Positions 2,929-36,959 of a stretch of 64,000 bases of DNA are shown in pieces. Each line of letters begins with the position of its first letter. Within the stretch, counting starts at the first letter, position 1. Location of the stretch: contig JODX01000027.1 in assembly GCA_000719105.1 (NCBI GenBank), positions 1 through 64,000 of the forward strand, given 5' to 3'. The notes beneath the pieces are model-generated. The model did not search any database and was not told the DNA's origin. It saw nothing but the letters and a program-made list of their open reading frames with translations. The translations under genes and the position numbers were made by a program. Source of the stretch: Streptomyces sclerotialus (lineage in GTDB: Bacteria; Actinomycetota; Actinomycetes; Streptomycetales; Streptomycetaceae).

Positions 2929-3534
2929 CGTTCAAGATCTTCCGCCACCTCATGCCGGCATCGATCGGACGCGCCGCGAAGCTCTGAGATGTACGTCCCT
3001 TCCCGATAGTGCCGCAGCGACGCGCGCAGGATCACAACGGAGCTCGAACCGGTGCCGGACAGCCTTGCGCTCGGACCCTGTCATGCCACCGCGAACACCT
3101 TCGGTATCGCCGCACTCCAGAGCGACTTCCAGGCAGGTCCCTTGCTACCTCGACGGCCGTGGCACAGGCCTCCCTCTGCTGCCAACTGTGATCTTCCCTG
3201 ACACGGGGTCGCGGGTGCTCGTTGTGCGGGGCCCCGCGGTGGCCCGGTCGCGGCGGCCGCGGCGGCCGCGGCCAGAATGCTGGTCCTCGTGAACAGCGTC
3301 GTGTCCGTCCGCGACCGCCAGGGGACCGCTGGTGCTCGGCGACTACGGCGCGGGCTCCGAGCCCGCCCTTCGCCACACCGAGACGGGCCGTCGACGCGGC
3401 CACACATCGCCCAGTCCGATCAGGGATCCGCACACCCTTGACCTGGTGATCGGTGCGGGAACACAAGGGTGCTGACAGTTCACCCGAGTTCGAACGCAAC
3501 ACCGGGTCGGGCGTGCCGTGACAAGCTTCTCCTC
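2929..3534. other. no intact gene
   Basis: I see no recognisable coding sequence, RNA gene or clear repeat here. The stretch separates the integrase remnant from the acetyltransferase gene. Confidence 0.5.
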
Positions 3535-4092
3535 GTGACCGCATTCGACGTCGCCGCACTCACGTTCACCCAGTTCACCCGGCCGCCCGAGCTCTCCGGC
3601 GCCCTCCGGCGGGAACTCGCCGCCTGTTGGGCAGCGGTGGTCAACTCCGGCGGGGCGGTCATTCCAGCGGACTGTCCGCTGCCGCCCCTGACGCCGGCGG
3701 ACGTCGACGCCGCCGTGGGCCGTATCGCGGAGAGCCTGGCGCCGGAGCGCAGCAGGCTGCTGGCAGCCACGCTCGACGGTGCTCTCGCGGGCTGGCTGCT
3801 CGTCCGCCGTGAAGGGCACCCGCTCGAAGCGCACTGCGGTGTGGTGAACCACGTGCAGACGCAGGTGCACCTCAGGGGCCTGGGTATCGGGGCCGCGCTG
3901 ATGCACCGCGTCCGCCATGTCGCACGGGAGGAGATGGGCCTGGAACGACTCAAACTGGCGGTGCGGGCCGGTCTGGGACTCGAGCACTTCTACCGCAGGG
4001 CCGGCTGGACCGAGGTCGGCCGGTGGCCGGGTGCGCTGCGCCTGGCGCCCGGTGACGACCGCGACGAGATCCTCATGAGCCTCGTACCGTGA
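3535..4092 (+). CDS. GNAT family N-acetyltransferase
   Basis: This 185-residue protein probably transfers an acetyl group from acetyl-CoA to an amine; the substrate is unknown. The fold is read from the C-terminal half: VNHVQTQVHLRGLGIGAALM gives the beta-4 strand and the acetyl-CoA loop in the R/Q-G-x-G/A form (RGLGIG), followed by the ERLKLAVR strand and LEHFYRRAGWTEVGR, the usual GNAT C-terminal segment. GTG at 3535 is preferred over upstream starts because the recognisable sequence begins soon after it; the ribosome site is weak. The gene stops about 100 bp from the convergent methyltransferase gene. Family is secure, function is not. Confidence 0.85.
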   Translation: MTAFDVAALTFTQFTRPPELSGALRRELAACWAAVVNSGGAVIPADCPLPPLTPADVDAAVGRIAESLAPERSRLLAATLDGALAGWLLVRREGHPLEAHCGVVNHVQTQVHLRGLGIGAALMHRVRHVAREEMGLERLKLAVRAGLGLEHFYRRAGWTEVGRWPGALRLAPGDDRDEILMSLVP

Positions 4093-4195: not shown

Positions 4196-4963
4196 TCAGT
4201 CCTTCAACGCCACGAGCACACAGCTGTCCCCCACCTGCCACACCGGCGTGACGCGGCTGAACCCCGCCTGGCGCAGCAGTTCGGCGTGGCGGCACACGGG
4301 GAGGTGCCGGTTGCCGCCTCCGCCGCCGGACGACGGACGGCTTCGCTCCCGCTGCTCGAACAGGTCGGCCAGCTCGGGGTCCGCGGCCGCCGCCCGCCAC
4401 CAGGACTCCCAGTCCTCGCTGCCGTGAACACCCGCCCGCTCGGCCCGGCGGCGTCCCACATGGGCGGTCAGGTCCGAGCAGGACCGCATGTCCGGAGGGA
4501 AGTGGTCCCCGTTGACCAGCGCCCCGCCGGGGCGGAGCAGAGCCGCGAGGGAGCGGTAGGTCTCCAGCAGGTCGCGGGCGGGGAGGTAGTGCAGCGCCGT
4601 CGTCGAGACGGCGACGTCCAGGCTGCGGGGCAGCTCCAGGGCATCGGCCCAGCCGTCCTCGCCTATCACCGCGTGCACATAGCGGGCGGCGTCCGCGTGG
4701 TGGGTGCGCCCCAGCTCCAGCAGTACGGGGTCCATGTCGACCGCGACGATCTCCGCGTCCGGCAGGCGGCGGGCGAGCCGGGCGGACAGGGAACCGGGTC
4801 CGCAGCCCAGGTCCAGCAGGAGCGGCCGGGTACGGCCGGCGCAGACGTGCTCCACGACGTCCGAGATCACTGTGAAACGTTCCTCGCGGTCCACCGCGTA
4901 CCGCTGCTGCTGCCGCTCCCAGCGCTCCACCCACGTCCTGGCCGCATCCATGCTCACGCCCAT
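4196..4963 (-). CDS. class I SAM-dependent methyltransferase behind a Zur-like site
   Basis: This roughly 255-residue soluble methyltransferase has the motif I glycine loop LLLDLGCGPGS followed by the acidic EIVAVDMD motif, then VSTTALHYLP and the LLRPGG loop. A glycine run and an Arg-rich stretch precede a C-terminal segment about PVWQVGDSCVLVAL. Such proteins methylate small molecules; the substrate cannot be read. The start is uncertain: ATG 4963, ATG 4951 or GTG 5002 are in frame. A Zur-box-like 15-mer lies at 5022-5036 just upstream, so repression when zinc is plentiful is likely. It follows the PLP-enzyme operon on the same strand (82 bp from the stop at 5045 to ATG 4963) and may serve the same pathway. 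Confidence 0.8.
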   Translation of the reverse strand: MGVSMDAARTWVERWERQQQRYAVDREERFTVISDVVEHVCAGRTRPLLLDLGCGPGSLSARLARRLPDAEIVAVDMDPVLLELGRTHHADAARYVHAVIGEDGWADALELPRSLDVAVSTTALHYLPARDLLETYRSLAALLRPGGALVNGDHFPPDMRSCSDLTAHVGRRRAERAGVHGSEDWESWWRAAAADPELADLFEQRERSRPSSGGGGGNRHLPVCRHAELLRQAGFSRVTPVWQVGDSCVLVALKD

Positions 4964-5021
4964 CCGGTTGCGCCACCTCTTCCGTCTCTCACCTGTCGGC
5001 ACCTGCTGCGCAATCTACAGG

Positions 5022-5036
5022 TGGAAACGATTATCA
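5022..5036 (-). promoter_or_regulatory. Zur-box-like operator of the methyltransferase gene
   Basis: On the minus strand the sequence reads TGATAATCGTTTCCA, a 7-1-7 partly palindromic site close to the actinobacterial Zur form TGAAAATGATTTTCA. It lies 59-73 bp upstream of ATG 4963. Binding is inferred from sequence only. Confidence 0.6.
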
Positions 5037-5044
5037 ATAACCAT

Positions 5045-6253
5045 TCACGCCAGGGAGGCGAGAACGCTCAGCAGGCGGTCGATCTCCTCGTCGGTGTTGT
5101 AGACGTGCAGGCTCACCCGTACGGATCCGGCCTTGTCGTCCGCGCCCGCCTGGCAGAGGCTGTCGGCCCGGACCATGAAGCCGTGGCTGAAGAGGACGAA
5201 CCCGAGGTCGTCGGACGGGATGCCGCGGTGCCGGAAGGTGACGATGCCGTGCCGTCGCTGGGCCGCGGGCAGCGCGGAGTCGGCGGCCAGACTGGCGGGG
5301 CAGCCGAGGACCTCGTAGGCGTCCAGGCGGCGCAGCCGGTCGGTCAGGCGGGTGGCCAGACGGGTGACGTGATCCGCGACGCGGTCGACGCCGACCGCGT
5401 CCAGCCAGTCGAGGGCGGCCAGCAACGACACGACGCCCACGGTGTTGGGGGTGCCCTGCCAGCCGGAGGGCACCAGGGCGGGTCCGCGGGTGTTGCGCGC
5501 CCAGACCGCGCCGGTGCCGGGCAGGGCCAGTGCCTTGTGCCCGGAGAAGACGACGAAGTCCACGTCGAGCGCCGGATCGCCGACCCGGACGGGAAGATGG
5601 CCGACACTCTGCGCGGCGTCCAGGCAGATGGGGACGTCAGGGCCCACGGCGGCGCGGAGGCGGTGGACGTTCATGTCCCCGCCGTAGACATGGTGGACAT
5701 GGGTGGCGGCGACGAAGCGGGTGCGGGGGCCGACGGCGTCGGCGAGGGCACGGTGGTCGTAGTCGCCGGACACCTCCTGGTACGGCAGGGCGCGGACGCG
5801 CACCTCGGTGCCGCGCTCCGCGAGCAGGCGCCGGGCTTCGAGCCAGGGTTCGAGGTTGGCCCGGTGGTCGGCGAACGGGACCAGGATCTCGTCGCCGTCG
5901 GTGAGGTGCTCCACGAGCCAGTCGCGGGCGACGGTGCGCAGGCCCTCGGTGGTTCCGCTGGTGAAGTGGACGGTGGAGCGGTCCGGTTCCCGGTCGCCGA
6001 GGAACTCCTTGACCCGCTCACGGGCCCGTTCGATCAATTCCGTGGTCCGGTTGGCCCAGGGATAGGTGCCGCGGCCCGCGTTGGCGTTCGACGTCGTCAG
6101 GTAGGTCTGTACGGCGTCCAGGACGGCCTGTGGCTTCTGCGAGGTCGCCGCACTGTCCAGGTACGCCAGCTCCGGATGCGCCGTGATGATCGGGAACTGC
6201 GCCCTCAGCTTCTGCTGCCAGGGCCCGTCTCCGTCATGGGTCGTGCCGTGCAC
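5045..6253 (-). CDS. class V PLP enzyme, cysteine-desulfurase-like
   Basis: This 402-residue protein has the SufS/CsdA layout: LDSAATSQKP near residue 33, HFTSGTTEG near 96, ADHRANLEPW with His about 130, LDAAQSVGH with the PLP Asp about 212, and FSGHKALALPG with the Schiff-base Lys about 240. The segment RADSLCQAG keeps a Cys (about 367) where SufS-type enzymes have their sulfur-carrying cysteine, and RVSLHVYNTDEEID follows as in that family. It may therefore take sulfur from a cysteine-like substrate, although class V folds also do epimerase or lyase chemistry. GTG 6253 has GAGGGAG at good spacing; an earlier GTG at 6259 overlaps the upstream stop. It is the third gene of the operon from 9095. 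Confidence 0.85.
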   Translation of the reverse strand: MHGTTHDGDGPWQQKLRAQFPIITAHPELAYLDSAATSQKPQAVLDAVQTYLTTSNANAGRGTYPWANRTTELIERARERVKEFLGDREPDRSTVHFTSGTTEGLRTVARDWLVEHLTDGDEILVPFADHRANLEPWLEARRLLAERGTEVRVRALPYQEVSGDYDHRALADAVGPRTRFVAATHVHHVYGGDMNVHRLRAAVGPDVPICLDAAQSVGHLPVRVGDPALDVDFVVFSGHKALALPGTGAVWARNTRGPALVPSGWQGTPNTVGVVSLLAALDWLDAVGVDRVADHVTRLATRLTDRLRRLDAYEVLGCPASLAADSALPAAQRRHGIVTFRHRGIPSDDLGFVLFSHGFMVRADSLCQAGADDKAGSVRVSLHVYNTDEEIDRLLSVLASLA

Positions 6254-6255
6254 GG

Positions 6256-7593
6256 TCACTCCCTCGTCAGCGGTGCGCCCGCGTCCCGCCAGGCGACGAT
6301 GCCACCCGCCAGGCTGCGCACGTCCGGGTGCCCCATGCGGGTCAGCAGCGCGGCGTAGCGCAGCGACTTCTCCCCCACCGGACAGGCCAGCAGCACCGGT
6401 GTCCGCCTGCTGAACGGCAGCCCGGTCCGCACCAGTTCCTCGAACATCTCGTCGACGATGTTGACCGAGCCCTCGATGTGCAGGGCGGCGTAGGCGTGCG
6501 GGCCGCGCAGGTCGACCACCAGAGGACGGGGATCGCCCTCCGCCGTCCAGCGCCGGGCGTCCTCGACGCCGATGACCCGGGCCTCGGCACGTATCTCGCT
6601 GTCGGTGAGCGACGACACCGAGGGCCCGCGCCGTGCTCTGCCCAGCAGCTCCGGTCGGCGCCGGCGCACATAGCTCAGGTAGCTCTCGGCACGGTCGCAC
6701 ACGATGAAGACGGCGCTCTGGCGACGGCCGGTGCCCGCCAGCCCGGCGTCGACGGACGCCAGGTGCCGGATGGCTCCCTGATAGGCGGCACCGCCGGTCG
6801 GGCCCGACAGCAGCCCGCAGCGGCGGATGAGGGTGACCATTCCGTCGATGGCCTCCTGGGAGGTGACCGACGCGAGGGAGTCGTACGTGGCCGGGTCGAA
6901 CAGACCGACCTGGTGCACCTCGTCGATGGTGCGGATGCCGGGGATGAAGTCGGACTTGTCGGCGACCAGCCCGAGCACCCGGACCTGCGGATCGTGCTCG
7001 CGCAGCACCTGGGCGACACCGGTGGAGGAGCCGGCCGTGCCGACGCAGGCGATGAACCAGTCCGGTGCCTGCCCGTCCAGGTCCTTGACGATCTCCGGCC
7101 CGGTCCCGGCCGCGTGTGCCTCGACGTTGCGGGGGTTGAAGTACTGGTCGGTGTGCAGATACGTGCTTCCGGGCTCCGAGAGGGCCTGGTGGAAGCGGGT
7201 GAGCGGATCGTCGGTGTCCGTCGGGTCGAGGCACTCGCTCTGCCCCGGGAGTTCCTCGATCTCCGCCCCGAGGAGCAGCAGCAGTTCCTTGATCTCGGGG
7301 ACGCGCATCCGGTTGGTGACGCTCTTGAACTTCAGCCCGTGCAGGCCGGCCAGCAGGGCGAGGGCCTTGGCCGTGTTGCCGCTGGAGAGTTCCACGACCG
7401 TGCCGTCACCGCCGGCCGCCTCCTCCAGGTGCGGGCGGGCCATGTGCCAGGCAGGCCGGTCCTTGACGGACCCGAACGGGTTGAGCATCTCCAGCTTGGC
7501 GTACAGGTCGATGTTGTCCAGTCCGTGCACGGACGGATCGATGCGGACCAGCGGTGTGTTGCCGATGGCCTCGGTGATGCTGTCGTATCTCAA
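6256..7593 (-). CDS. CysK/CBS-like PLP enzyme fused to a rhodanese domain
   Basis: Residues 1 to about 310 are a beta-family PLP enzyme: IGNTPLVRI near the start, NPFGSVKDRPA with the PLP Lys about 44, ELSSGNTAKA near 69-77, and GTAGSSTGVA for phosphate binding. Residues about 335-445 are a rhodanese domain with LVVDLRGPHAY and an active-site-type Cys about 404 in LLACPVGEKS. This pair of domains could make a carbon-sulfur or carbon-nitrogen bond by beta-replacement and carry sulfur. The start is TTG 7593, which overlaps the TGA of the upstream gene and has GGGAG in front; a longer GTG/ATG start would run into the upstream gene. The downstream gene begins within a few bases of its stop, so the three are translationally coupled. 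Confidence 0.87.
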   Translation of the reverse strand: MRYDSITEAIGNTPLVRIDPSVHGLDNIDLYAKLEMLNPFGSVKDRPAWHMARPHLEEAAGGDGTVVELSSGNTAKALALLAGLHGLKFKSVTNRMRVPEIKELLLLLGAEIEELPGQSECLDPTDTDDPLTRFHQALSEPGSTYLHTDQYFNPRNVEAHAAGTGPEIVKDLDGQAPDWFIACVGTAGSSTGVAQVLREHDPQVRVLGLVADKSDFIPGIRTIDEVHQVGLFDPATYDSLASVTSQEAIDGMVTLIRRCGLLSGPTGGAAYQGAIRHLASVDAGLAGTGRRQSAVFIVCDRAESYLSYVRRRRPELLGRARRGPSVSSLTDSEIRAEARVIGVEDARRWTAEGDPRPLVVDLRGPHAYAALHIEGSVNIVDEMFEELVRTGLPFSRRTPVLLACPVGEKSLRYAALLTRMGHPDVRSLAGGIVAWRDAGAPLTRE

Positions 7594-9095
7594 GACGGCA
7601 CTCCCTGCGGGTGTGTGAGCGGCCAGTAGTCCTCGTCCAGACACCAGTGCCGGGCACCGCCCTCCTCCGTGACCGCCACGGTCCGCGCGACGGGCTGCCG
7701 CTGCGCGTGGTGGGCATGGAAGTCCGAGACGTAGCCGGCGGTGTTGACGAAGGCCAGCAGGTCCCCGGCGCGGGGCAGGCGGGGCAGGAAGACCAGCCGC
7801 CGGGTGATCAGGTCGGCCTCCAGACAGAGGTTGCCGACGAGATGGACCCCGACCGGTCCGTCGTCCGGCGCCGCGTCCCGGGAGTCACCGCGGGGCAGCA
7901 GCACGGGGTCGACGAGGACCCCGTGCTCCTCCAGACTCACGTCCCCGGCGTTCATGCCGAGGCGCACCAGGTGCCGGGTGGGGTCGCCGTCCATGGGCCG
8001 CACGTCCAGTACGCGGGCCAGTGACAGTCCGCACTGGTCGACGAGGGCGCGCCCCGGTTCGACGTACAGATCGTTCAGGTGCTCCAGCAGGAGCGTGGCG
8101 GGCGGCCGGCCCAGGACCGGGGCGGTACGCGAGAGCAGTTGGTCGAGGTAGCCGGGTCCGGCGACGGGCCGGTGGGCGGGGTACAGGGCCGCCGCGCCGC
8201 GTACCGTGCCGCCCTCGTTGCGCAGCCCGTAGCCGTGACCGCGCCAGGTCAGGGACGGCCGCGCGCCGAGCACCGCTTCGCTCAGCGCGGTGGTCCACCG
8301 CTCCCACTCGCCCGCCTCGGCGACGTAACCGACTCCGAACCCCCCGCCGATGTCGACGACGCGCGGCGTCAGGCCCCGCGCCCGGCACTCGTCCATCGCC
8401 AGCACGCACCGCTCCAGCGCCCGGGCCTTCTCCTCCAGCCCGGTGGTGTCCAGGTGGTACGCCAGACCGGTCAGTGCGACGGCGTCCTGATGCCGCTCCA
8501 GCGCCGCCCACAGCTCATCGGCTTCGGCGAGAGGCGTACCGAAGCGGCTGCGGCGCGACAGCACCCGCGTGCCGGCACCGCCGTGCCCGGTGTCCGACTC
8601 GAACCCTGACAGACGCGCCAGCACGTCCACCCTGCCCAGTCCGTACGTCCGGACGAGCTGCGCCAGTTGCTCCAGCTCGCCGACCGAGTCCAGGTTGACC
8701 GTCGCCCCCACCCGGGCCGCCAGCCACAGGAACTCCCGGTCCTTGGGACCGGTGGCCATCACCCGGTCCCCCGTGAACCCACAGCTCAGCGCATGCCGTA
8801 GCTCCTCCAGAGAGGCCACGTCGATGCCGACGCCGGCCGGGTCACAGGCGGCCAGCCTCCGCACCAGGGCGCTGGAACGATTCGCCTTGTGCGCGAAGTA
8901 CACCCGGCCGGCGAGGTGATGGCGGCGGTAGACGGACCGGAAACGTTCGGCGTTCTCGGCGACGGCCTCCGGGAGCAGCACATTGAGCGGCGAGCCCAGT
9001 ACGTCGACCAGCGAGTGCAGGAACGGCACATCCCCCAGCAACGAGGCCAGCGGCGGATCCACCCGCGGCCTCAGATACAAGGGCGCGTCCTTCAC
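7590..9095 (-). CDS. fold-III PLP decarboxylase, Y4yA-like
   Basis: This 501-residue protein matches the diaminopimelate/ornithine decarboxylase superfamily. VYFAHKANRSS places the PLP Lys at about 70, AYHLDTTG contains the PLP-stacking His, VDIGGGFGVGY is the phosphate-binding glycine loop at about 248-257, VEPGRALVDQ is at 345, and GNLCLEADLI places the partner-subunit Cys at about 424. It is longer than LysA (about 420). A related family, Y4yA, occurs with a CysK-like protein (Y4xP) and a siderophore-synthetase-like protein in Rhizobium NGR234, as I recall. GTG 9095 follows GGGGAGGG. It is the first gene of the operon and lies 57 bp from a Zur-like site. Its substrate is unknown. Confidence 0.85.
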   Translation of the reverse strand: MKDAPLYLRPRVDPPLASLLGDVPFLHSLVDVLGSPLNVLLPEAVAENAERFRSVYRRHHLAGRVYFAHKANRSSALVRRLAACDPAGVGIDVASLEELRHALSCGFTGDRVMATGPKDREFLWLAARVGATVNLDSVGELEQLAQLVRTYGLGRVDVLARLSGFESDTGHGGAGTRVLSRRSRFGTPLAEADELWAALERHQDAVALTGLAYHLDTTGLEEKARALERCVLAMDECRARGLTPRVVDIGGGFGVGYVAEAGEWERWTTALSEAVLGARPSLTWRGHGYGLRNEGGTVRGAAALYPAHRPVAGPGYLDQLLSRTAPVLGRPPATLLLEHLNDLYVEPGRALVDQCGLSLARVLDVRPMDGDPTRHLVRLGMNAGDVSLEEHGVLVDPVLLPRGDSRDAAPDDGPVGVHLVGNLCLEADLITRRLVFLPRLPRAGDLLAFVNTAGYVSDFHAHHAQRQPVARTVAVTEEGGARHWCLDEDYWPLTHPQGVPS

Positions 9096-9151
9096 GAAGT
9101 ACCCTCCCCACGTCAGCCGGCCGTCGATTCGTCGTCACGACGACCGTCCCG

Positions 9152-9166
9152 GGATAGTCGTTTCCC
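9152..9166 (-). promoter_or_regulatory. candidate Zur-box-like operator of the PLP operon
   Basis: The plus strand reads GGATAGTCGTTTCCC, which equals the site at 5022-5036 (TGATAATCGTTTCCA in the same reading) at 12 of 15 positions. It is 57 bp upstream of GTG 9095. It is the weakest of the six sites: both outer bases deviate. Position and similarity support it; binding is untested. Confidence 0.45.
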
Positions 9167-9189
9167 TCTACACGCGCTGCTAAGCGCAA

Positions 9190-9355
9190 GCTGGTGCTTC
9201 ACGAAGGCGTGGTCGGTGACCGTAGCGACCTGTCCGCCTGGCCCAGTCGCCTCGCGTCGCGGCGTGTCGGCTCGTTCGACGGTCCAGCCGAAGGACGGCA
9301 GGGCGAGTCCGGCGTACACCTCGTCCGGGGTGGGGAAGTACGTGTCCTGGTCCTG
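9190..9355 (-). pseudogene. 3' end of a SAM methyltransferase, remnant
   Basis: The frame TYFPTPDEVYAGLALPS...WTVERADTPRREATGPGG...VATVTD resembles the C-terminal end of small Streptomyces methyltransferases. No N-terminal glycine loop is present, and the frame runs upstream straight into an unrelated ABC-ATPase frame. It is a fragment without a start. Confidence 0.4.
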
Positions 9356-11732: not shown

Positions 11733-11760
11733 GGAACAACGTCCGCGGTAGCATGGCAGA

Positions 11761-20752: not shown

Positions 20753-20767
20753 TGACATCCATTTTCA
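20753..20767 (+). promoter_or_regulatory. Zur-box-like operator of rpmF-COG0523
   Basis: TGACATCCATTTTCA is a 7-1-7 site whose right arm is the perfect ATTTTCA; the reverse reads TGAAAATGGATGTCA. It is 40 bp upstream of the rpmF start. In Streptomyces coelicolor, Zur controls cysteine-free ribosomal protein genes, which supports this call. Confidence 0.75.
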
Positions 20768-20984: not shown

Positions 20985-22172
20985 ATGACCCACGTCCCCT
21001 CGGCGCGTCTTCCCGTCACTGTTCTGTCGGGGTTTCTCGGTGCCGGCAAGACCACCCTGCTCAACCATGTCCTCGGAAACCGAGAGGGCCTGCGCGTCGC
21101 TGTCATCGTCAACGACATGAGCGAGGTCAACATCGACGCCGCCCTGGTGCGCGGCGGCGAGGCAGCGCTGTCGCGCACCGAGGAACGCCTGGTCGAGATG
21201 ACCAACGGATGCATCTGCTGCACCCTGCGCGACGATCTGCTGGAAGAGGTGGACCGGCTGGCGCGCGAGGGGCGTTTCGACTACCTCCTCATCGAGTCCT
21301 CCGGCATCTCCGAGCCCATGCCGGTGGCCGCCACCTTCTCCTTCGCCCGTGACGACGGCGCCACCCTCGGCGAACTGGCCCGGCTGGACACGATGGTCAC
21401 GGTGGTGGACGCCGCCAACTTCCTGCCCGAGCTGGCCGGAGGTGACGAGTTGGCCGAACGGGGCCTGGATCAGTACGAGGACGACGAACGCACGGTCAGC
21501 GACCTGTTGATCGACCAGATCGAGTTCGCCGATGTCATCGTCCTCAACAAGCTCGATCTCGTAGACGCCGCGTCCGCCGGCCGGCTGCGATCCGCCTTGG
21601 CGCGGCTCAACCCCGCCGCCCGCGTGGTGCCGGCCGTGCGGGGCCGTGTACCGGTCGGCGAGGTCCTGGGCACCGGCCGCTTCGATCTGGAGCGAGCGCA
21701 GCAGGCCCCGGGCTGGGTCAGGGAACTCAATGGTGACCATGTTCCCGAGACGGAGGAGTACGGCATCTCCTCGACCGTCTTCCGCTCCGGAACGTCCTTC
21801 CACCCCGGGCGACTGTGGACGTTCGTGACCGAGGCTCTCGACAGCGGAGCCTACGGACAGGTGCTCAGGTCCAAGGGCTTCTTCACGCTGGCCAGTCGCC
21901 CTCACATAACGGGGCTGTGGTCCCAGGCCGGCTCGGTGGCACGCTTCGAGCCCTCGTCCGCGCGTAACGTCGACAGCCCTTTCGCCCAGGAACTCGTGTT
22001 CATCGGCACCGACCTGAACGCCGAGTCTCTGCGGGCGGCCCTGACCGACTGCCTCATGAGGGAAGACGAGCGGCATCCCCGCTCCGACCCTTTCCCCGCC
22101 TGGGACACCTACGGCCTCGACGAGGTCTGTGCGCACGAACACGAGCCCCTCACCGCCATGACGGGTCGCTGA
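20985..22172 (+). CDS. COG0523 (CobW-type) GTPase, probable zinc metallochaperone
   Basis: This 395-residue G3E GTPase has Walker [10 protein letters not shown] (about 16-24), the metal motif CICC (about 76-79), switch region [14 protein letters not shown] for guanine recognition, and a C-terminal CobW_C domain ending in an Asp/His/Glu-rich tail. Proteins of this type under Zur control deliver zinc to client enzymes in zinc shortage. ATG 20985 is 6 bp after the rpmF stop, so the two are co-transcribed. A further gene for a methyltransferase follows after 74 bp. Client proteins are unknown. Confidence 0.93.
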
Positions 22173-24064: not shown

Positions 24065-25267
24065 TCAGTGTCCGGCGACGACGCCCGACAGCTCGTTGGT
24101 GCTCTCCGGCAGGGTGACGGAGGTGATCTTCTTCCCCGTCTCCAGGTCGATGGCGTGCAGGGCCTTCTTGCTGGGTTCGGAGACGTACGCGGTGTGGTCG
24201 CGGACGAAGAGGGTGGGCCGGGCCTGCTGCCAGTCCAGCGGCTCCTGCCACTCGCCCACGGCGGGGATCTCCTTCTCGGCCTTTCCGGTGTTCTGGTCGA
24301 TGACGTGGATGGCGCCGTCGGTGCCGAGGACCAGGGCCTCGCCGTGCGGGCCGCGGGCCAGTGAGCGGAAGGAGTAGCTGGTGCCCAGGTCCACCAGGCG
24401 CAGCTTCTTCTTCTCGGTGTCGATGAGGGAGATACGGGTGGGCCGCTCCAGCTCGGCCTCGGGGTCGGTCTTGTAGTCGCCCAGGAGGATGGGCGAGGTG
24501 TCGCTGCCGGCCTGGTTGCCGATGCGGCCGTAGTCGTCGGGGGCGTCGATCTTGGTGAACTTGCCGTCCTCGTAGATCAGGATGCCGTCCTCGCAGCCGA
24601 CGGCGATGGCCTCGTTCTTGGCGGCCGCCTCACCATGGACGCCGGGGCAGTTCTCGTTGCGCGCGATCTCCTTGTTGTTCTCGTCCAGCACCAGCGCGCC
24701 GGTGCGCTTCTCCTCGGTGCCCAGGGTGCTGAGGAGTTCGCCGTTGGCCAGTTCGATGGCGACGCCGTGGTGTGCCTCGGCGGAGGTGTAAGTGCGTCCT
24801 TCCGGCTTCTTGCCGCTGCTCAGGTCGGCGGGGTCGAAGACGTTGACCTCTCCGGTGCCGTCGGTGAAGAGCACGGTCTTGCCCGCATGACGTACGACGT
24901 GGCCGGGCTTGGCGCCCTTGTACTCGATGTCGGTGAGGGTCTGCTGGGTGGCGTTCAGGACACGGAAGCCGCTGTCGGTGGAGACGACGACGTGGTCCTC
25001 GTCCCCCGCGGGGTTGACCCGGTTGAAGCCGGGAAGCCTGATGGTCTTGGCCGGCTTCAGGCTCTCGCCGTCCAGGATGTACATGCCGCCGTCGAAGGTG
25101 GCGACCAGCGGGTCCTTGACCGCCGCGGCGGGCGTGGCGCTTGCGGTGCCGTCGGACTTGGCGTCGGCGGAGGAGGAGTCCTCGCCTCCGCAGGCGGTCA
25201 GAACCGTGGACACCGCCAGGGCGAGTGCCGTGCCCGTGAGGGCTCTGTTGCGTATGGACTTGTTCAT
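24065..25267 (-). CDS. aztD: periplasmic zinc metallochaperone AztD, lipoprotein
   Basis: This 400-residue protein starts with a lipoprotein signal ending LTACGG (lipid-bearing Cys about 26), followed by a Ser/Ala-rich linker. The rest is a run of beta-propeller-like repeats such as DGGMYILDGESLKPAKTIRL, DEDHVVVSTDSGFRVL and DHTAYVSEPSKKALHAIDLE. Histidines at VVRHAGKT and SAEAHHGVAIELANG are the kind of ligands AztD uses to bind zinc and pass it to AztC. ATG 25267 is a clear start. It is the last gene of the operon that starts at 28454, after a 95-bp gap from aztC. Confidence 0.9.
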   Translation of the reverse strand: MNKSIRNRALTGTALALAVSTVLTACGGEDSSSADAKSDGTASATPAAAVKDPLVATFDGGMYILDGESLKPAKTIRLPGFNRVNPAGDEDHVVVSTDSGFRVLNATQQTLTDIEYKGAKPGHVVRHAGKTVLFTDGTGEVNVFDPADLSSGKKPEGRTYTSAEAHHGVAIELANGELLSTLGTEEKRTGALVLDENNKEIARNENCPGVHGEAAAKNEAIAVGCEDGILIYEDGKFTKIDAPDDYGRIGNQAGSDTSPILLGDYKTDPEAELERPTRISLIDTEKKKLRLVDLGTSYSFRSLARGPHGEALVLGTDGAIHVIDQNTGKAEKEIPAVGEWQEPLDWQQARPTLFVRDHTAYVSEPSKKALHAIDLETGKKITSVTLPESTNELSGVVAGH

Positions 25268-25362: not shown

Positions 25363-26340
25363 TCAGTCGCCGGCCAGGCCGTCGACCATGGCCGTGGTGT
25401 TGGCGCGCATCATCCGCAGATAGGTGTCGGCGCCCTCGCCCTCGGCGGTCAGCGACTCCGAGTAGAGCTCGACGACCCGGACCTGGCCGCCCATCTCGGT
25501 ACGCAGTACCTCGGCGAGCCGTTTGGGCTGGGAGGAGTCGGCGAAGACGGTGCGTACGCCTGCCTTCTCCATCGCCTCGGTGAGTGAGCGGAGGTCCGAG
25601 GAGCTGGGTGAGGCCAGTGTGGTGCCGCTGGGGACGACCGCGCCGATCACCCGGAAGCCGAAGCGGTCGGCGAGGTAACCGAAGACATGGTGGTTGGTGA
25701 CCAGGGCCCGCTCGTCCTCGGGGACGCGGTCGAAGGACTTCTCCATCCAGGCGGCGAGGTCGGTGAGTTCTTCGGCGTAGCGGTCGGCGTTGCCGCGTAC
25801 CGTGTCGGCGTCCACGCCGTCGACGTGCTCGATGACCTGGTCGGCTATGAGGCCGGTGGCCTTGCGCACCCGGTCGGGGTCGGTCCAGAAGTGCGGGTCG
25901 GGCTGTCCTGTCTCGCCCTCGGGACCCCCGTCGTCGGCCGCGTGGAAGGTGAGCGGGTCGGCCGCCTCGCCGGCCGCGAAGGTGGCGACACCGGACTCGC
26001 GGGCGGCGTCCACGTGCCGCAGTACGTTCTCCTCCAGGCCCAGGCCGTTGTAGACGACCAGATCGGCCCGTTCCAGCTCGGCGGCCTGCACCGCCGAGAG
26101 GCCGAACGAATGCGGGTCCGCGTTGGGCTTCATCAGGACGGTGACGTCGGCCTCGTCACCGACGATCTCCCGGGTGACGTCGCCGAGGATGTTGGTTGTG
26201 ACAACGATGCCGGGCTGGTCCTCATCGGTGGTGCAGGCGGTGGCGGTGGCGGCCGTGACGAGGGCGAGCAGGCCCACGATCAGGCTGCGCAGGCGGGCGA
26301 TGCCCACCCTCGCGCGCTGCTTCGCCTCGGTCCGGCTCAT
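25363..26340 (-). CDS. aztC: zinc ABC transporter substrate-binding protein AztC
   Basis: This 325-residue lipoprotein (Cys about 36 in ATACTTD) belongs to the ZnuA/cluster A-I binding proteins. Predicted zinc ligands are His in KPNADPHSF, His in PDPHFWTDP, His in VTNHHVFGYL and Asp in FADSSQ. A short acidic and glycine-containing loop (DDGGPEGETGQPD) lies before the second ligand. Its start codon overlaps the stop of the preceding AztD-like gene (ATGA), so they are translationally coupled. It should bind zinc outside the membrane and pass it to AztB. Confidence 0.93.
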   Translation of the reverse strand: MSRTEAKQRARVGIARLRSLIVGLLALVTAATATACTTDEDQPGIVVTTNILGDVTREIVGDEADVTVLMKPNADPHSFGLSAVQAAELERADLVVYNGLGLEENVLRHVDAARESGVATFAAGEAADPLTFHAADDGGPEGETGQPDPHFWTDPDRVRKATGLIADQVIEHVDGVDADTVRGNADRYAEELTDLAAWMEKSFDRVPEDERALVTNHHVFGYLADRFGFRVIGAVVPSGTTLASPSSSDLRSLTEAMEKAGVRTVFADSSQPKRLAEVLRTEMGGQVRVVELYSESLTAEGEGADTYLRMMRANTTAMVDGLAGD

Positions 26341-28469: not shown

Positions 28470-29213
28470 ATGAAAATCATGTTCAATAAACCTCCGCCCT
28501 CGCCCACCCCACCCCCGCAGCGGACTGCTCACGTCCGTTTCTCCGGGTTGTGCGCCGGCTATCCAGGCCGTTCCGTCCTTCGTCAAGTGACCGCGGAAAT
28601 ACCCGAGTTGGCCACAACGGTGCTCGTCGGACCGAACGGCAGCGGCAAGTCGACCCTGCTCGGTGTTCTCGCCGGTGTGATCCGTCCGACATCCGGTGAT
28701 CTTCACCGCACCGGGAACCGGGCACCCGCGTTCGTACCGCAGCGCGGAGCCGTCGGCGACACCCTGCCGCTCACCGTCCGGCAGACCGTGGAGATGGGGC
28801 GCTGGGGCGAACGCGGTCCGTGGCGCCGGCTGACCCGCCGGGACCACACGGCCGTGGACGCGGCGCTCGACCGGCTCGGCATCCGGGACCTCGCCTCACG
28901 TCAACTGGGCGAACTGTCGGGTGGGCAGCGACAACGCGCGCTCATCGCGCAGGGGTTGGCGCAGGAGTCGGACCTGCTGCTGCTCGACGAGCCGACCACA
29001 GGTCTGGATCCGGAGGCGAGGGAGCGGATCGGGACGCTGCTGACGGCACTCGTCGCCGACGGGGTGACGGTCGTCCAGGCCACGCACGACCTGGAGGTCG
29101 CGCGCGCGGCGGACGCATGCCTTCTGCTCCAGGACGGCCGCCTCGCCGCACAGGGGCATCCGGACCAGGTCCTCACCACGTCGGCGCCGGCCCGCGTCCG
29201 GCAACCACTCTGA
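28470..29213 (+). CDS. aztA: zinc ABC transporter ATPase AztA
   Basis: This protein of about 245 residues has Walker A VGPNGSGKST, Q-loop FVPQRGA, signature LSGGQRQRA and Walker B LLLLDEPTTGLD. ATG 28470 and ATG 28479 are both possible and both lie inside the Zur-like palindrome, with no ribosome site; the mRNA would be leaderless. If so, bound Zur would sit over the start of the gene. A proline-rich stretch of about 10 residues precedes the ABC domain. It is divergent from aztB and energises that permease. Confidence 0.9.
   Translation: MKIMFNKPPPSPTPPPQRTAHVRFSGLCAGYPGRSVLRQVTAEIPELATTVLVGPNGSGKSTLLGVLAGVIRPTSGDLHRTGNRAPAFVPQRGAVGDTLPLTVRQTVEMGRWGERGPWRRLTRRDHTAVDAALDRLGIRDLASRQLGELSGGQRQRALIAQGLAQESDLLLLDEPTTGLDPEARERIGTLLTALVADGVTVVQATHDLEVARAADACLLLQDGRLAAQGHPDQVLTTSAPARVRQPL
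28471..28485. promoter_or_regulatory. Zur-box-like bidirectional operator of azt
   Basis: TGAAAATCATGTTCA is a 7-1-7 palindrome with two arm mismatches, overlapping the aztA start codon and 17 bp from the aztB start. One site could repress both directions. It has the best left arm of the six sites. Confidence 0.75.
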
Positions 29214-29568: not shown

Positions 29569-30456
29569 TCAGTGAGCGGGTTCCGGAGCGGTGTGCGCGT
29601 CGACGTCGCCCCCGCGTCGCCGCGCCCGGGCGAGCAGCCCGTGCCGGGGTGCCAGGCACCAGGTCACGGTGAACAGCAGGGTCAGGACGCAGACGATGGA
29701 GCCGCCGGCGGCGAGGTCGTAGGCGTACGACACGTACAGCCCGGCCAGTGCGCCCGTGCCGCCGAGCAGGGAGGCCAGCAGGGTCATCGCCCAGAGCCGT
29801 TCGGTGAGCATGCGGGCCGCCGCGGCCGGGGTGATGAGCAGGGAGAGGACGAGGATGTTGCCGACCGCCTCCAGGGACATCACGATCGTGGCGGTGACGA
29901 CGGCGTAGAGGATGAGGTCGAGCCGCAGAACGGGGAGTCCGGCCGCCCGGGCCGTCTCGCGGTCGAGGCTGACGGCGACCAGCTCCTTGCTGAGCAGCAG
30001 GACGACCGTCACCAGGACCGCGCCGAGGCCCGCCGCTGTCCACACGTCCTCGGGGCCGACCGCGAGCACCTGTCCGAACAGGAACGAGGACAGGTCGGTG
30101 GACCAGCTGTCCTGCGTGGACACCAGGACGATGCCGAGGCCGAACGCGCAGGAGAAGAACACGCCGATGACGGTGTCCTCCTTCAGGCGCCGGTTCTGGG
30201 AGACGAGCGCGATGAGGAGGGAGGTGGTCAGGCCGGCGAGCGCGCCGCCCAGGAGCAGGTTGCCCTGGAAGGCGTAGGCGAGGGCGACCCCCGGGAACGC
30301 CGAGTGGGACACGGCCTCGCCGATGAACGCCATCCCGCGCAGCACGACGTACACGCCGACGACCCCGCACACCAGCCCGGTGATCACGGCGACGGCGAAC
30401 GCCCGCTGCATGAAGGGCAGCTGCCAGGGGTCCGTGAGGAATTCCAGGAACGTCAC
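29569..30456 (-). CDS. metal ABC transporter permease of the anchored-repeat system
   Basis: This 295-residue integral membrane protein has the ZnuB/cluster A-I pattern: FMQRAFAVAVITGLVCGVVG, VVLRGMAFIGEAVSHSAFPG and NILVLSLLITPAAAARML. It is the channel of a second zinc importer. Its start overlaps the ATPase stop by four bases (ATGA). The C-terminal tail is Arg-rich. It is the last gene of a six-gene operon that begins at 36792. Confidence 0.92.
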   Translation of the reverse strand: MTFLEFLTDPWQLPFMQRAFAVAVITGLVCGVVGVYVVLRGMAFIGEAVSHSAFPGVALAYAFQGNLLLGGALAGLTTSLLIALVSQNRRLKEDTVIGVFFSCAFGLGIVLVSTQDSWSTDLSSFLFGQVLAVGPEDVWTAAGLGAVLVTVVLLLSKELVAVSLDRETARAAGLPVLRLDLILYAVVTATIVMSLEAVGNILVLSLLITPAAAARMLTERLWAMTLLASLLGGTGALAGLYVSYAYDLAAGGSIVCVLTLLFTVTWCLAPRHGLLARARRRGGDVDAHTAPEPAH

Positions 30457-31193
30457 GCGGCGGCTCCGATCGCGGTGTCCAGGCCGAAGGCGCGCAGCAT
30501 CTGCTCCGGATCGGCGAGCAGCCCGGGGCCGCCCTCGGCGACGACCGTGCGGTTGAGCAGCGCCACCCGCGTGCAGGTGCGGGCGGCGGCCGCCAGATCG
30601 TGGGTGGTCATCAGCAGCGCCCTGCCCTCGGCGGCAAGGCGGCCGAAGAGGTCGTTCAGCAGTTCCTGGGTGGGCACGTCCACGCCGGTGAACGGCTCGT
30701 CCAGGAGCAGCAGCCGGGGGTCACAGGCCAGTGCGCGGGCCACGAGCACCCGCTGCCGCTGCCCGCCCGACAGCTCCCCGATCGGGCGGCGGCGCAGCTC
30801 GGCGAGGCCGACCAGCTCCAGTGCCTCGTCGACGGCCGCCCGGTCGGCGGGCCGCGCCCGGCGCAGCCAGCCGATGGAGCGGGTACGGCCGGACAGCACG
30901 GCCCCCGCGATGTCGACGGGGAAGTCCCAGGCGAACTCGTGGCGTTGCGGGACGTAACCGATGAGGTGCCGGGCGCGGGCCGGGGGCAGGCCGTCGATCA
31001 GCACATCGCCGCCCGCGAGCGGGACCAGGCCGAGCACGGCGCGCAGCAGGGTCGTCTTGCCCGCCCCGTTCGGGCCGAGCAGGCCCAGCAGATCGCCCCG
31101 GTGCACGGTCAGCCGCGCGTCCTGGACGGCGGGTCTGCCGCCGAGGAGCACATGCACGTCACGCGCCCGCAGCAGTGGCTCGGAGGCGTTCAC
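30453..31193 (-). CDS. ATPase of the anchored-repeat ABC transporter
   Basis: This 246-residue protein has Walker A LLGPNGAGKTT, Q-loop YVPQRHEF, signature LSGGQRQRV and Walker B LLLLDEPFTGVD. HEFAWDFPVDI after the Q-loop matches the metal-importer branch of ABC ATPases. It overlaps the genes on both sides by four bases, which points to strong translational coupling. It powers the permease encoded at 29569-30456. Confidence 0.93.
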   Translation of the reverse strand: MNASEPLLRARDVHVLLGGRPAVQDARLTVHRGDLLGLLGPNGAGKTTLLRAVLGLVPLAGGDVLIDGLPPARARHLIGYVPQRHEFAWDFPVDIAGAVLSGRTRSIGWLRRARPADRAAVDEALELVGLAELRRRPIGELSGGQRQRVLVARALACDPRLLLLDEPFTGVDVPTQELLNDLFGRLAAEGRALLMTTHDLAAAARTCTRVALLNRTVVAEGGPGLLADPEQMLRAFGLDTAIGAAA

Positions 31194-32806
31194 GCGGCGG
31201 TCCTCCCGGCGGTGCGGCCGCGGCGCTTGCGGGTGACGGCGACGAAGGCGGTCCCGAGCGCGGCGAGTACGGCGGCCGTCCCGCCCACCAGTACCGCGTT
31301 CCCGGCGCCGGTCGAGGCCATGGAGCCGCCGCCGTCACCGTCGGAGGAGTCTCCGGCGGCCGGGGAGGTGTCGTCGCCGGATGCTCCGGTGCCGGACGAG
31401 CCGCCGTTCGCTCCGCCGGGTCCGTCGTCACCCGTTCCGGAGGAGGAGCCGTTGCCGGATCCGTTGCCCGGCTTCACGGCGTTCGGGTCCTCGTCGCCGA
31501 CCACGAACGCCACGGTCTCGGTGTCGCTGACCGCCGTGCCGTCGGCGAGCTCGCCGCTCATCTTGAACGTGAGCCGGTACGTCCCCTCCTCGGTGAACGC
31601 CCAGCCGCCGTGCGCGTGTGTGTTCGCCGGGATGTCGAAGGCGTCCGGAACCCCGTCCTTGCTGTTGAACAGGACGGTCGCGCCCGACATGGCGTCGTAG
31701 GTGTAGAGCGCGGCGGTGCCGGGGCCCTCGACCCCGGTGAGGGAGAAGGTGACTCCGCCCTTGGTGGCTCCCGCCTGGATGTTGTCGGTGGACCAGCCGG
31801 GCCACAGCAGTCCGTCCTGCTGCACCTGGTCGAGCAGCCACACGGGGTCCCCGGCCTTGCCGAGGAAGGTGAAGTCGTCGCTGTCGGGAACGGTGTTCCT
31901 GGCGGCGGGCTTGACGTGCAGGACCACGGAGGAGGGTTCGCGCCAGGTGGTCTTCCCGGAGACCGTGCCGTCCTTGATGTGGATCCGCATCGTGCGGTCC
32001 ACGACGCGGGCGGCGATGTCGATGTGGCCCTCGTCGATGACCTTCGGCGTCGACACGACCGTCTCGGCCTTCGCGGCGGCCGGTGCGGAGAGCTTCGCGG
32101 CGGCGGGTGCGGAGGACACGGTCGGGGCCGCCGCCCCGGCGACCGGGGCGATGAGGTGCGGCGGCTCGGCCGACGGGTCCGTGCGGGGGACGACCGCGGG
32201 CGGGACCTCGGCAGCGCCGCCCGGCGCTGCGTCGGCCTCACCGGCGGCTTCCTCCCCGACCAGCACCGTGTGGACGGACCCGATGGACAGCTCCCGCCCG
32301 TCGAGCGTCCTGGCCTCGGCGGTGAAGACGGCCTGGTAGGTGCCCTCGGCGGTGAACTCCCACCGTGTGGCGCCCTTCTGACCCGCGGGCAGTTCGTAGC
32401 CGTCGGGCAGTCCGTCCGCGCTGTCGAAGAGGAGCGAGCCCGTCCCACCGTCGCCGTCCCGCGCGTACACCTTCAGGTCGCCCGGTCCGTCGAGCCCGGT
32501 CAGCGACCACCGCACGGTGTCCCGGTCCACGGTGCCCTCGGGCACCCCGGTGGTGTCCCACCCGGTTTCCGCTGCGTCGGCCGGCCCGGTGACCGGGACC
32601 TCGATGACGGATGCCGCGGCTCCGTCCTGGTCCACCGGGCCGCCCAGGCTCAACGCCCCGTCCGCGTAGGCGATCCGGCCCGGCCCGGAGCGTGCGCCGG
32701 TGCCGCCGTCGTCCGCCGCCGCCGCGACGCCGCTGCCCGTGAGCGCGGCCGCGAGCGCCACCGCCGCGGCGACGCGTTCCCTGCGTACGTTCCCCATGGC
32801 CCTCAT
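31190..32806 (-). CDS. TIGR03773-type transporter-associated surface protein
   Basis: This 538-residue exported protein has a signal peptide (VAAAVALAAALTGSGVAAAA). Two repeats of the actinobacterial surface-anchored type follow, each ending in a G-x-W-x-F-T-x-E-G-T-Y motif (RWEFTAEGTYQAVF about 150, GWAFTEEGTYRLTF about 385). A Gly/Ser-rich spacer leads to SMASTGAG, a hydrophobic helix and KRRRGR, a sortase-like or membrane anchor. ATG 32806 overlaps the stop of the preceding gene (TGATG). It probably keeps zinc capture at the cell surface; its direct role is not established. Confidence 0.88.
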   Translation of the reverse strand: MRAMGNVRRERVAAAVALAAALTGSGVAAAADDGGTGARSGPGRIAYADGALSLGGPVDQDGAAASVIEVPVTGPADAAETGWDTTGVPEGTVDRDTVRWSLTGLDGPGDLKVYARDGDGGTGSLLFDSADGLPDGYELPAGQKGATRWEFTAEGTYQAVFTAEARTLDGRELSIGSVHTVLVGEEAAGEADAAPGGAAEVPPAVVPRTDPSAEPPHLIAPVAGAAAPTVSSAPAAAKLSAPAAAKAETVVSTPKVIDEGHIDIAARVVDRTMRIHIKDGTVSGKTTWREPSSVVLHVKPAARNTVPDSDDFTFLGKAGDPVWLLDQVQQDGLLWPGWSTDNIQAGATKGGVTFSLTGVEGPGTAALYTYDAMSGATVLFNSKDGVPDAFDIPANTHAHGGWAFTEEGTYRLTFKMSGELADGTAVSDTETVAFVVGDEDPNAVKPGNGSGNGSSSGTGDDGPGGANGGSSGTGASGDDTSPAAGDSSDGDGGGSMASTGAGNAVLVGGTAAVLAALGTAFVAVTRKRRGRTAGRTAA

Positions 32807-34353
32807 CAGGCTTCCTTCCCCAGGCACGTGGCGAGTTCGGTCGCGTTGTGCCGCATCATCGATACGTAGTCGTGGATCCGGTCGTCGAAGGAATCGCCGT
32901 AGATCGTGCAGACCCCGACTCCCTGGTCCTGGGCGACCCGTTTCAGCACGTCGGCGCGGGCGGCGAGGTTGGGTTCCAGGAACACCGAAGGCACCTGCTT
33001 CTCCCGGATGGTGGCGCCGAGCTCCTCCACCTCGGCCGCGCTCGGCTCCCGGTTGGGCACCGGTACGACGAAGCCCGCGACCTCCATGCCGTACGCCTCG
33101 GCGAGGTACCCGAAGGCGTCGTGCGTGGTGATCAGCTCGCGGTTCTCCTCGGGGACGGCCGCCAGCTCACGGGCGACCTCCTGGTCGAGGGCGTCGAGCG
33201 TCTTCAGGTACGCCGCGGCGTTCTTCTCGTACGTCGCCTTCCCGTCCGGATCGGCCTTGACCAGCTCGGCCTCGACGCGGCGGACGTACGCCTGGGCGTT
33301 GGCGACGTCCTCCCAGGCGTGCGGGTCCATGTCGCCGTGGACGTGCTTGCCGATGACGGCCTGCGGCAGCACCCACACCTCGTCACCGGGCCGGCCGAGG
33401 AACGCGTACGGCTTCTCCTTCGGCACGGCCTCCTTCGCCCGGTCGGGCACGTTGAGGACGACCCGGTCGGCCGGGTGCCGGGTGCGTGCGCCGCTTCTGC
33501 CGTCCTCCGCGCGGACATCGACCTTGCCGCTCTCGGCGTTGAGCGTGACATCGGCATGCCCGCCGTCGAGCACGGTCGTCCCGTCGGGGGCGTCGGTTCC
33601 GTCGCCGACGGTGAAGGTGAAGGTGCCGCTGCCGAACTCCTCGGCTCTGCCGTCGAGGGTCTCGGTGCGGCCTTCGACGGTCAGCCTGTACGTACCGGGC
33701 TTGCTGAAGGCCCAGTTGACGTGCGTGTGTGCCTCGGGCGGCAGGGTGAAGGAGTCCTCGGCGCCGAAGCCGTCGGCGGAGTCGATGTACACGTTCGGCC
33801 TGCCGAGCGTGTCGGTGAGGTAGACGCGCAGCTCGCCGGGCCCCTCGAGCTTCGTGGCCGTCGTCCGGACCTGGGACCCCTCGCCTGCCACCTCGCCCTC
33901 GACGGCCCAGCCCAGCCAGAGCACGTCGAGACCGAGATCCTCCTCCAGCTTCATGACCGTGCCGCCGTACTGCTCCAGCTTTTCGGCGAGTGCGATCTTG
34001 GTAGTGCCCTTGGGCGCGTTGTTGTGGACCATCTTCATGATTCCGGGCTCCTCCAGCAGCAGCCCGTTGCTGAACACCAGGTCGGCCTCGGCGACCCTGG
34101 CCGCGTCCTTGGGGCTCGGCTCGTAGGAGTGCGGATCGCCGTTGTGCGGCACGATCGAGGTCACGTCGACGCGCTCGCCGCCCACCTGCCTCACCAGGTC
34201 CGCGACGATCGCCGTGGTGGCCGAGACCGTCAACGCGGCGTCGGATGCGCCGGGCCGCGCGCCGCTGCACCCGGCCGCCGCCGTGGCGAGCAGTGCGCAG
34301 CCTGCCGCGAGCGCGGCCCTTGCCCTCGTGGTGCCTCTGGGGTGCCCCCGCAT
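32806..34353 (-). CDS. anchored-repeat ABC transporter substrate-binding protein
   Basis: This 515-residue lipoprotein (Cys about 29 in AAAGCSG) is a ZnuA-type binding protein with a long insertion. The first lobe has HNGDPHSYEPSP; then, after LWLGWAVEGEVAG, about 200 residues are a surface-repeat domain with HTHVNWAFSKPGTYRLTV; the second lobe resumes at HVHGDMDPHAWEDV and has LITTHDAFGYLAEAYG. Zinc ligands are expected from His in DPHSY, DPHAW and THDAFG. This architecture is the TIGR03772 family. The inserted repeat may let it dock to the partner surface proteins. Confidence 0.92.
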   Translation of the reverse strand: MRGHPRGTTRARAALAAGCALLATAAAGCSGARPGASDAALTVSATTAIVADLVRQVGGERVDVTSIVPHNGDPHSYEPSPKDAARVAEADLVFSNGLLLEEPGIMKMVHNNAPKGTTKIALAEKLEQYGGTVMKLEEDLGLDVLWLGWAVEGEVAGEGSQVRTTATKLEGPGELRVYLTDTLGRPNVYIDSADGFGAEDSFTLPPEAHTHVNWAFSKPGTYRLTVEGRTETLDGRAEEFGSGTFTFTVGDGTDAPDGTTVLDGGHADVTLNAESGKVDVRAEDGRSGARTRHPADRVVLNVPDRAKEAVPKEKPYAFLGRPGDEVWVLPQAVIGKHVHGDMDPHAWEDVANAQAYVRRVEAELVKADPDGKATYEKNAAAYLKTLDALDQEVARELAAVPEENRELITTHDAFGYLAEAYGMEVAGFVVPVPNREPSAAEVEELGATIREKQVPSVFLEPNLAARADVLKRVAQDQGVGVCTIYGDSFDDRIHDYVSMMRHNATELATCLGKEA

Positions 34354-36944: not shown

Positions 36945-36959
36945 TGGTAATCATTTTCA
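36945..36959 (-). promoter_or_regulatory. Zur-box-like operator of the anchored transporter operon
   Basis: The minus strand reads TGAAAATGATTACCA, differing from a perfect TGAAAATGATTTTCA palindrome at two positions. It is the best of the six sites and lies 153 bp upstream of the first gene of the operon. The leader between them (36793-36944) shows no gene. Confidence 0.8.

Follow-up and report, generated by a model that had tools for sequence, protein, structure and literature searches.

A DEC-CYSK-SUFS-MT operon of Streptomyces sclerotialus as a candidate zinc-starvation pathway with predicted sulfur chemistry

In the staphyloferrin B pathway, with its roles for SbnA, SbnB and SbnH, a CysK-like enzyme and a fold-III decarboxylase are engaged in the making of a metallophore. 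Rhizobactin contains an ethylenediamine unit (PMC7676072), the pathway for the zinc ligand [S,S]-ethylenediaminedisuccinate (EDDS) of Amycolatopsis japonicum stands under Zur repression (PMC6103462, PMC9252823), and coelibactin has been described as Zur-controlled (PMC5472717). Here, an operon of four genes was analysed in the window, i.e., the whole stretch of 64,000 nucleotides at positions 1 to 64,000 of contig JODX01000027.1 of Streptomyces sclerotialus: DEC, for a fold-III pyridoxal-phosphate (PLP) decarboxylase; CYSK, for a CysM/CysK-type PLP domain with a C-terminal rhodanese; SUFS, for a SufS-like class-V PLP enzyme, predicted to be a desulfurase; and MT, for a class-I S-adenosylmethionine-dependent methyltransferase. 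The operon is read as a self-standing zinc-starvation pathway that would join sulfur relay, decarboxylation and methylation in a small methylated aminothiol or thioether amine, a reading to which we give a little less than an even chance.

The operon shares with staphyloferrin B the pairing of a CysK-like enzyme with a fold-III decarboxylase, and with the rhizobactin-type and other Y4yA-containing clusters the position of a Y4yA-family decarboxylase next to a CysK-like PLP enzyme. However, CYSK groups away from SbnA, being CysM-like and carrying a rhodanese, SUFS and MT are additional, and neither SbnB, an opine dehydrogenase nor a synthetase stands at the operon. The likeness to EDDS would be that of a small-molecule zinc ligand pathway under Zur. 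In one Nocardia genome the three PLP genes (the trio) lie near a thiazoline-type nonribosomal peptide synthetase (NRPS) cluster, as of coelibactin, whereas the window's genome has no match to the thiazolinyl reductase and the co-occurrence is not significant. Catalytic residues are common to SUFS and the SufS desulfurases, and to CYSK and CysM of Mycobacterium tuberculosis (Mtb), although the operon proteins score below the NCBIfam cut-offs in all cases shown.

The conserved operon and its predicted Zur boxes

The three PLP genes overlap one another by 4 bp on the minus strand, and MT, outside the overlapping set, follows SUFS after 42 bp (Table 1); the overlap and the gene order agree with the first-pass annotation of this DNA. 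A search with CYSK against one genome per species gave 70 loci, of which 64 (L036-L099) are close relatives, and the order DEC-CYSK-SUFS-MT is kept on one strand in 61 of the 64; of the exceptions, L098 and L099 are truncated where their contigs end and L090, from Nocardia, is without this MT. CYSK was found in 68 of 295 Streptomyces genomes (E<=1e-150), about a quarter, in 19 of 61 genomes of an earlier draw, and in 5 of 396 genomes of a phylum-level scan (E<=1e-100). In agreement with the earlier statement, the window shows neither an NRPS nor a synthetase gene next to the operon, and no paper on the operon was found in a literature search limited to open-licence PubMed Central.

The Zur matrix was built from 19 distinct sites upstream of ZigA/RpsN2 genes in the same loci, none of them from the operon, selected among 54 upstream regions where they had <=2 mismatches to the actinobacterial core given in PMC5472717. 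Among the 63,986 window positions, the four best are 36945, 28471, 20753 and 5022 (22.8-24.7 bits), and the next one reaches 14.2 bits. The box at 5022, in the SUFS-MT spacer, has counterparts throughout: a site was found in 62 of 62 spacers (the window and 61 loci, excluding L090, L098 and L099), each with p<0.01 against 200 shuffles, these loci being related and their counts not independent. A CTGTAGATT-like sequence occurs in most of the spacers printed, and a candidate -10 element, TAGATT, lies just downstream of the box in the window.

The second 15-mer proposed as a Zur-like site, at 9152 upstream of DEC, is present and agrees with that at 5022 at 12 of 15 positions; its partner is far beyond chance, but this site taken alone is weak, ranking 48th in the window, with p=0.09 when the 150 bp upstream are shuffled. 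Its block, TGGAAACGACTAC, is nevertheless widely kept upstream of DEC, and in L037, L040, L043 and L093 it is a good box (18.2-24.3 bits). By the matrix, p<0.05 was reached in 27 of 62 DEC-upstream regions (3 expected; L045, L072 and L099 excluded) and p<0.01 in 15, these regions likewise coming from related loci that do not count independently. The published S. coelicolor motif tGaNNatSatNNtCa (PMC5472717), tried as a scorer, gave p=0.78 for the window's DEC-upstream region, p<0.05 in 10 of 62 such regions (median 0.53) and in 34 of 62 spacers (median p 0.05), and was dropped as too coarse in favour of the matrix.

Five perfect TGRNAAYSRTTNYCA matches, 5022 and 36945 among them, occur in the assembly to which the window belongs (7.02 Mb, 85% complete). 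The others precede, at C1:566932, a binding protein that scores best with AdcA/AztC models and matches ZnuA models as well, without reaching any of the cut-offs; at C4:244950, the genes of ribosomal L28 and S14, which each exceed their cut-off; and at C36:32007, a FecB-like binding protein, below cut-off. A stricter Zur pattern was found at 3 places and its reversed control at none, and with <=1 mismatch there are 19 places against 10 in the control, so that the one-mismatch set is not clean. The box before MT lies at a predicted promoter and is specific among the genome sites.

In the window, zinc-starvation-type genes lie 12-28 kb from the operon, with the three other best Zur boxes among them (Table 1). 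Elsewhere, of the 48 loci with full flanks, 23 have at least one of ZigA, the second GTPase, the S14 paralogue, AztC/D and the anchored-repeat genes at a distance of up to 10 kb and 25 have none, 14 of 62 loci with short flanks having been left out. Unselected neighbour families found in at least 8 of 63 sequences (the window and 62 loci, the operon genes and their wrong-frame copies set aside) were GNAT (22), the ZigA-type GTPase (16), an upstream same-strand family (13), the second GTPase, COG0523-like by eye (12), and the S14 paralogue (9). The same-strand family sits where ABC (ATP-binding cassette) exporters sit, a match of overall position, and the GNAT acetyltransferase, convergent with MT, is a possible pathway member.

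Because the neighbours and the genes at the five perfect sites are of the zinc type, the predicted zinc link of the operon is strongly supported. Within it, the proposed Zur control is well supported for MT, by the box and its genome-wide company, about as securely as a sequence permits, and is plausible, indeed likely, though unproven for DEC-CYSK-SUFS; the original proposal of a Zur-controlled pathway is thereby upheld in part. Beside the features in Table 1, the window holds a second methyltransferase gene at 37446-38219, whose product resembles daptide MTases (63.8 bits, below cut-off) and whose start has a weak Zur-like site, 38200, beside it. A short ABC-ATPase fragment at 9180-9506, immediately upstream of DEC, may be what is left of a transporter. 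The major facilitator superfamily (MFS) gene at 10357-11754 was considered as an exporter and rejected, as tblastn found no match to it in any of the 64 loci.

Table 1. Features of the operon and of the surrounding zinc-type genes in the window
Feature	Position	Strand	Evidence
DEC, fold-III PLP decarboxylase	7590..9095	-	Pfam Orn_Arg_deC_N 86.9 bits
CYSK, CysM/CysK-type PLP domain and C-terminal rhodanese	6256..7593	-	PALP 178.9 bits, Rhodanese 55.9 bits
SUFS, SufS-like class-V PLP enzyme, predicted desulfurase	5045..6259	-	Aminotran_5 237.6 bits
MT, class-I methyltransferase	4196..5002	-	Methyltransf_25 60.4 bits; match in 61/64 loci
Strong Zur box, SUFS-MT spacer	5022..5036		22.8 bits, rank 4 in window
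Candidate -10 element TAGATT before MT	5012..5017	-	just downstream of box; predicted promoter role
Weak, degenerate Zur-like site upstream of DEC	9152..9166		5.1 bits; in conserved block
GNAT acetyltransferase, convergent with MT	3469..4092	+	convergent <=1.5 kb from MT in 29/61 loci
Zur box upstream of ZigA-like GTPase	20753..20767		23.3 bits, rank 3
ZigA-like COG0523-type GTPase	20985..22172	+	NF038288 517 bits, cut-off 600 not reached
AztD zinc metallochaperone	24065..25267	-	491.9 bits, above cut-off
AztC zinc-binding protein	25363..26340	-	393.3 bits, above cut-off
Zur box between oppositely oriented AztB-like and AztA-like frames	28471..28485		23.9 bits, rank 2; frames named by inspection
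Anchored-repeat metal ABC transporter genes	29569..34353	-	TIGR03770, TIGR03771, TIGR03772, TIGR03773 above cut-off
Zur box before frame resembling first anchored-repeat gene	36945..36959		24.7 bits, rank 1; frame named by inspection

The enzymes and the predicted route

The NCBIfam matches shown for the operon proteins are every one far below their cut-offs, and by those models none of them is therefore a plain CysK, SbnA or SufS. For the residue counts, frame-broken or truncated rows were excluded, with 62 DEC, 63 CYSK, 58 SUFS and 47 MT rows kept.

DEC is assigned to the Y4yA family by its 31-33% identity to Y4yA-annotated proteins across ~95% of its length and by its grouping with them in the tree; no NCBIfam model bearing the name Y4yA gave a match to it; the AHK lysine motif and the CLE of GNLCLEAD are invariant in the 62 sequences. 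In Rhizobium sp. Pop5, the Y4yA-family gene is accompanied by genes of a CysK-like protein, an opine dehydrogenase, IucA/IucC, MFS and ABC transporters and a TonB receptor, a cluster that may make a rhizobactin; on a plasmid of M. avium, by CysK-like, ornithine cyclodeaminase and MATE genes; in Agrobacterium, it lies near ornithine cyclodeaminase and CysK-like genes; in Sulfitobacter, near those of SbnA and an FAD protein; and in the Streptomyces locus L134, with arginine-hydroxylase-like, SbnB-like, SbnA-like, MATE and NikA-like genes. These surroundings appear to resemble metallophore clusters in part.

CYSK falls with the housekeeping CysM/K rows, split from the SbnA-like rows with a support of 98/98 in a tree that carries a long-branch warning, and it scores 140.6 bits against the SbnA model TIGR03945 (cut-off 349.95), so that neither score nor tree makes it an SbnA. 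The likeness to SbnA/SbnH first proposed for these genes holds in so far as DEC is of the Y4yA family, whose members stand beside CysK-like genes, and fails for CYSK. The best matches of CYSK among solved structures are O-acetylserine sulfhydrylase B (OASS-B) and Mtb CysM. Its Arg221 aligns with an arginine of Mtb CysM, which we take to be Arg220, and also with one in OASS-B 2jc3, and is not diagnostic. Lys44 and the rhodanese Cys404 are invariant in 8 aligned sequences (identity down to 40-48%), and the rhodanese domain has a CPVGEKS active-site loop in addition to its Pfam match. A rhodanese-named chain of PDB 8h4q/8h4h matches CYSK, no paper describing these entries having been found in the literature search; the AlphaFold model of CYSK, made from 8 sequences (mean predicted local distance difference test score, pLDDT, 73), was not used.

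SUFS scores 248.2 bits against the SufS subfamily model TIGR01979, below the cut-off of 475.1, but possesses the PLP lysine and the catalytic cysteine of SufS, positions assigned by eye, as Lys242 and Cys369, both invariant in 8 aligned sequences with identity down to 40-48%. The earlier idea of a sulfur-containing product is strengthened by the invariance of Cys404 and Cys369, and together with the placement of CYSK among CysM/K these cysteines favour a sulfur product over the SbnA analogy. The product is most likely a small sulfur-containing amine; we read the chemistry as one in which sulfur, not nitrogen, would be added before decarboxylation. The foremost candidate role for this product, though unproven, is that of a zinc ligand.

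With zinc present, Zur would block the MT promoter, its box lying just upstream of TAGATT, and, more weakly, the promoter before DEC, and zinc starvation would release both. Sulfur taken from cysteine by SUFS would then be carried as a persulfide on the rhodanese Cys404 of CYSK, whose CysM-type domain would add the sulfur, or a thiol, to the aminoacrylate formed from an activated serine. The amino acid so formed would be decarboxylated by DEC, a step for which the location of its Y4yA-family relatives in metallophore-like clusters appears to suit them, and MT would methylate the decarboxylated product to a small methylated aminothiol or thioether amine. This compound may bind zinc, either within the cell or after secretion, or may be a building block.

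Accompanying clusters and Nocardia variants

The trio lies directly downstream of a YcaO/SagB-type cluster with two ABC exporters in 10 of the 64 loci (L046, L047, L051, L056, L060, L062, L066, L074, L092 and L097), loci with short flanks being unable to show the cluster, and also in the genome G027. The cluster, at L188:5853-18595 (G027) and in L191-L200, begins with Zur-boxed FecB-like importer genes, after which come the genes of a C-protein-like protein (named by eye, without Pfam match), an S15 peptidase, YcaO, a SagB-like nitroreductase and two ABC exporters. In 9 of 10 such genomes a 37-aa peptide was found encoded before the C-protein, with its last 33 residues identical, all 10 variable nucleotides of its gene at third codon positions and TGAAAATCANATTCA ~60 bp upstream. 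The whole looks like a zinc-linked cluster of the ribosomally synthesized and post-translationally modified peptide (RiPP) type, and no paper treating both YcaO and a zincophore was found in the literature search. The C-protein (E<=1e-30) occurs in 37 of the 295 Streptomyces genomes, namely in 11 of 68 with the trio and 26 of 227 without it (both, 11; trio only, 57; C-protein only, 26; p=0.30). The cluster was rejected as a partner of the trio on this count, and the trio is accordingly taken as an independent module. In the window's genome (85% complete), where the C-protein has no match, the Zur-boxed FecB-like importer and two ABC exporters are kept on G000:C36 (L167, L190); in the interval from FecE to the exporters, the sole match was to the terminal part of the SagB-like gene. 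The FecB-like importer, tried as a dedicated uptake system (4 of 19 Streptomyces genomes with the trio and 3 of 42 without it, p=0.19), would rather belong to the YcaO cluster.

In the Nocardia locus L090, four genes that are each immediately preceded by a Zur-like box stand upstream of the trio: those of a thiazolinyl imide reductase, which exceeds its cut-off, of a P450, of a methyltransferase and of a Fur-family protein. A convergent methyltransferase gene with a one-mismatch box follows downstream; the two methyltransferases are not clear relatives of MT. The reductase recurs in L138, of the genome G105, where the boxes are found at corresponding places and two NRPS genes end ~10 kb upstream of DEC. 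In G105, DEC at C98:159264-160676 has an internal stop, and a second DEC-CYSK-SUFS set is on C93. The reductase was found in 3 of 19 Streptomyces genomes with the trio and in 2 of 42 without it (p=0.17), with no match in the window's genome, and a dependence of the trio on a coelibactin-like NRPS was rejected on that ground. A second Nocardia type (L130-L132) has SUFS, DEC and CYSK and, encoded between SUFS and DEC, a protein with a C-terminal HMA-type domain (L130:5022-6311, L132:10771-12048). The N-terminal region of this protein is without Pfam or fold match (E<=0.001; model pLDDT 70), and its named relatives, among the matches listed, are from Nocardia.

Alternative readings and significance

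Several points weigh against the reading as a self-standing zinc-starvation pathway. A desulfurase and a sulfhydrylase acting on plain serine would make a futile cysteine cycle, so another acceptor would be needed. No transporter is linked to the operon in most of the 64 loci, ABC-exporter-like matches being found in 14 of them, 10 with the YcaO cluster and 4 without it (L036, L041, L054 and L077). The CYSK tree has its long-branch warning; in the L130-L132 variant, the 14-19 kb covered are without a perfect Zur-like box, and the HMA-type metal domain found there is more familiar in copper proteins; and the strong box at 5022 can act on MT alone, the trio's own site being weak here. That the four genes would by themselves make a new zinc ligand, a methylated aminothiol or thioether amine, through the desulfurase-rhodanese-CysM relay and a Y4yA-type decarboxylation, without an NRPS, an NRPS-independent siderophore (NIS) synthetase or an opine dehydrogenase, is proposed tentatively and is rather doubtful.

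The product may instead stay in the cell. The SufU relay is zinc-dependent and bacillithiol buffers zinc, and the operon could make an intracellular thiol of low molecular weight for zinc buffering, or SUFS and the rhodanese could form a zinc-free carrier in place of the SufU relay, without any secretion; the lack of a linked transporter in most loci, the invariant catalytic cysteines and the zinc-starvation-type neighbours fit this, but a carrier alone leaves DEC and CYSK travelling with SUFS unexplained, and the DEC relatives are placed in metallophore-like clusters. We hold this route to be unlikely. Still less probable is the supply of a cysteine-derived unit for azole or thiazoline metallophores, of the NRPS type in Nocardia and of the YcaO/SagB type in some Streptomyces: the trio does lie near such clusters in G105, in the 10 loci and in G027, yet neither the C-protein nor the thiazolinyl reductase is significantly associated with it, and the window's genome has no match to either.

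The two readings to which we give the least credence, about equally, concern the earlier analogy and the reach of Zur. An SbnA/SbnH-like route to a diaminopropionate or ethylenediamine ligand, as the first-pass annotation had it, agrees with the DEC relatives that adjoin SbnA- and SbnB-like genes, but was rejected as the leading interpretation in view of the place of CYSK among the CysM/K rows and outside the SbnA-like ones; moreover, the operon is not accompanied by genes of SbnB, an opine dehydrogenase or an NIS enzyme, and the rhodanese and SUFS cysteines would be left without explanation. If MT alone were Zur-controlled, with the trio an independently expressed part of ordinary sulfur metabolism and their linkage incidental, the presence of a strong box solely before MT and the weak DEC site in this genome would be accounted for, but not the recurrence of MT behind the trio in 61 of 64 loci, nor the conserved DEC-upstream block with its good box in four of them.

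Such a self-standing zinc-starvation pathway, encoded in 68 of 295 Streptomyces genomes and for which the searches made returned no described function, would widen the known bacterial responses to zinc shortage. If its product were indeed a sulfur-containing zinc ligand, the operon would represent a route that the cluster detection based on NRPS, NIS and opine genes would miss, and with four genes and a clear candidate regulator it is directly testable.

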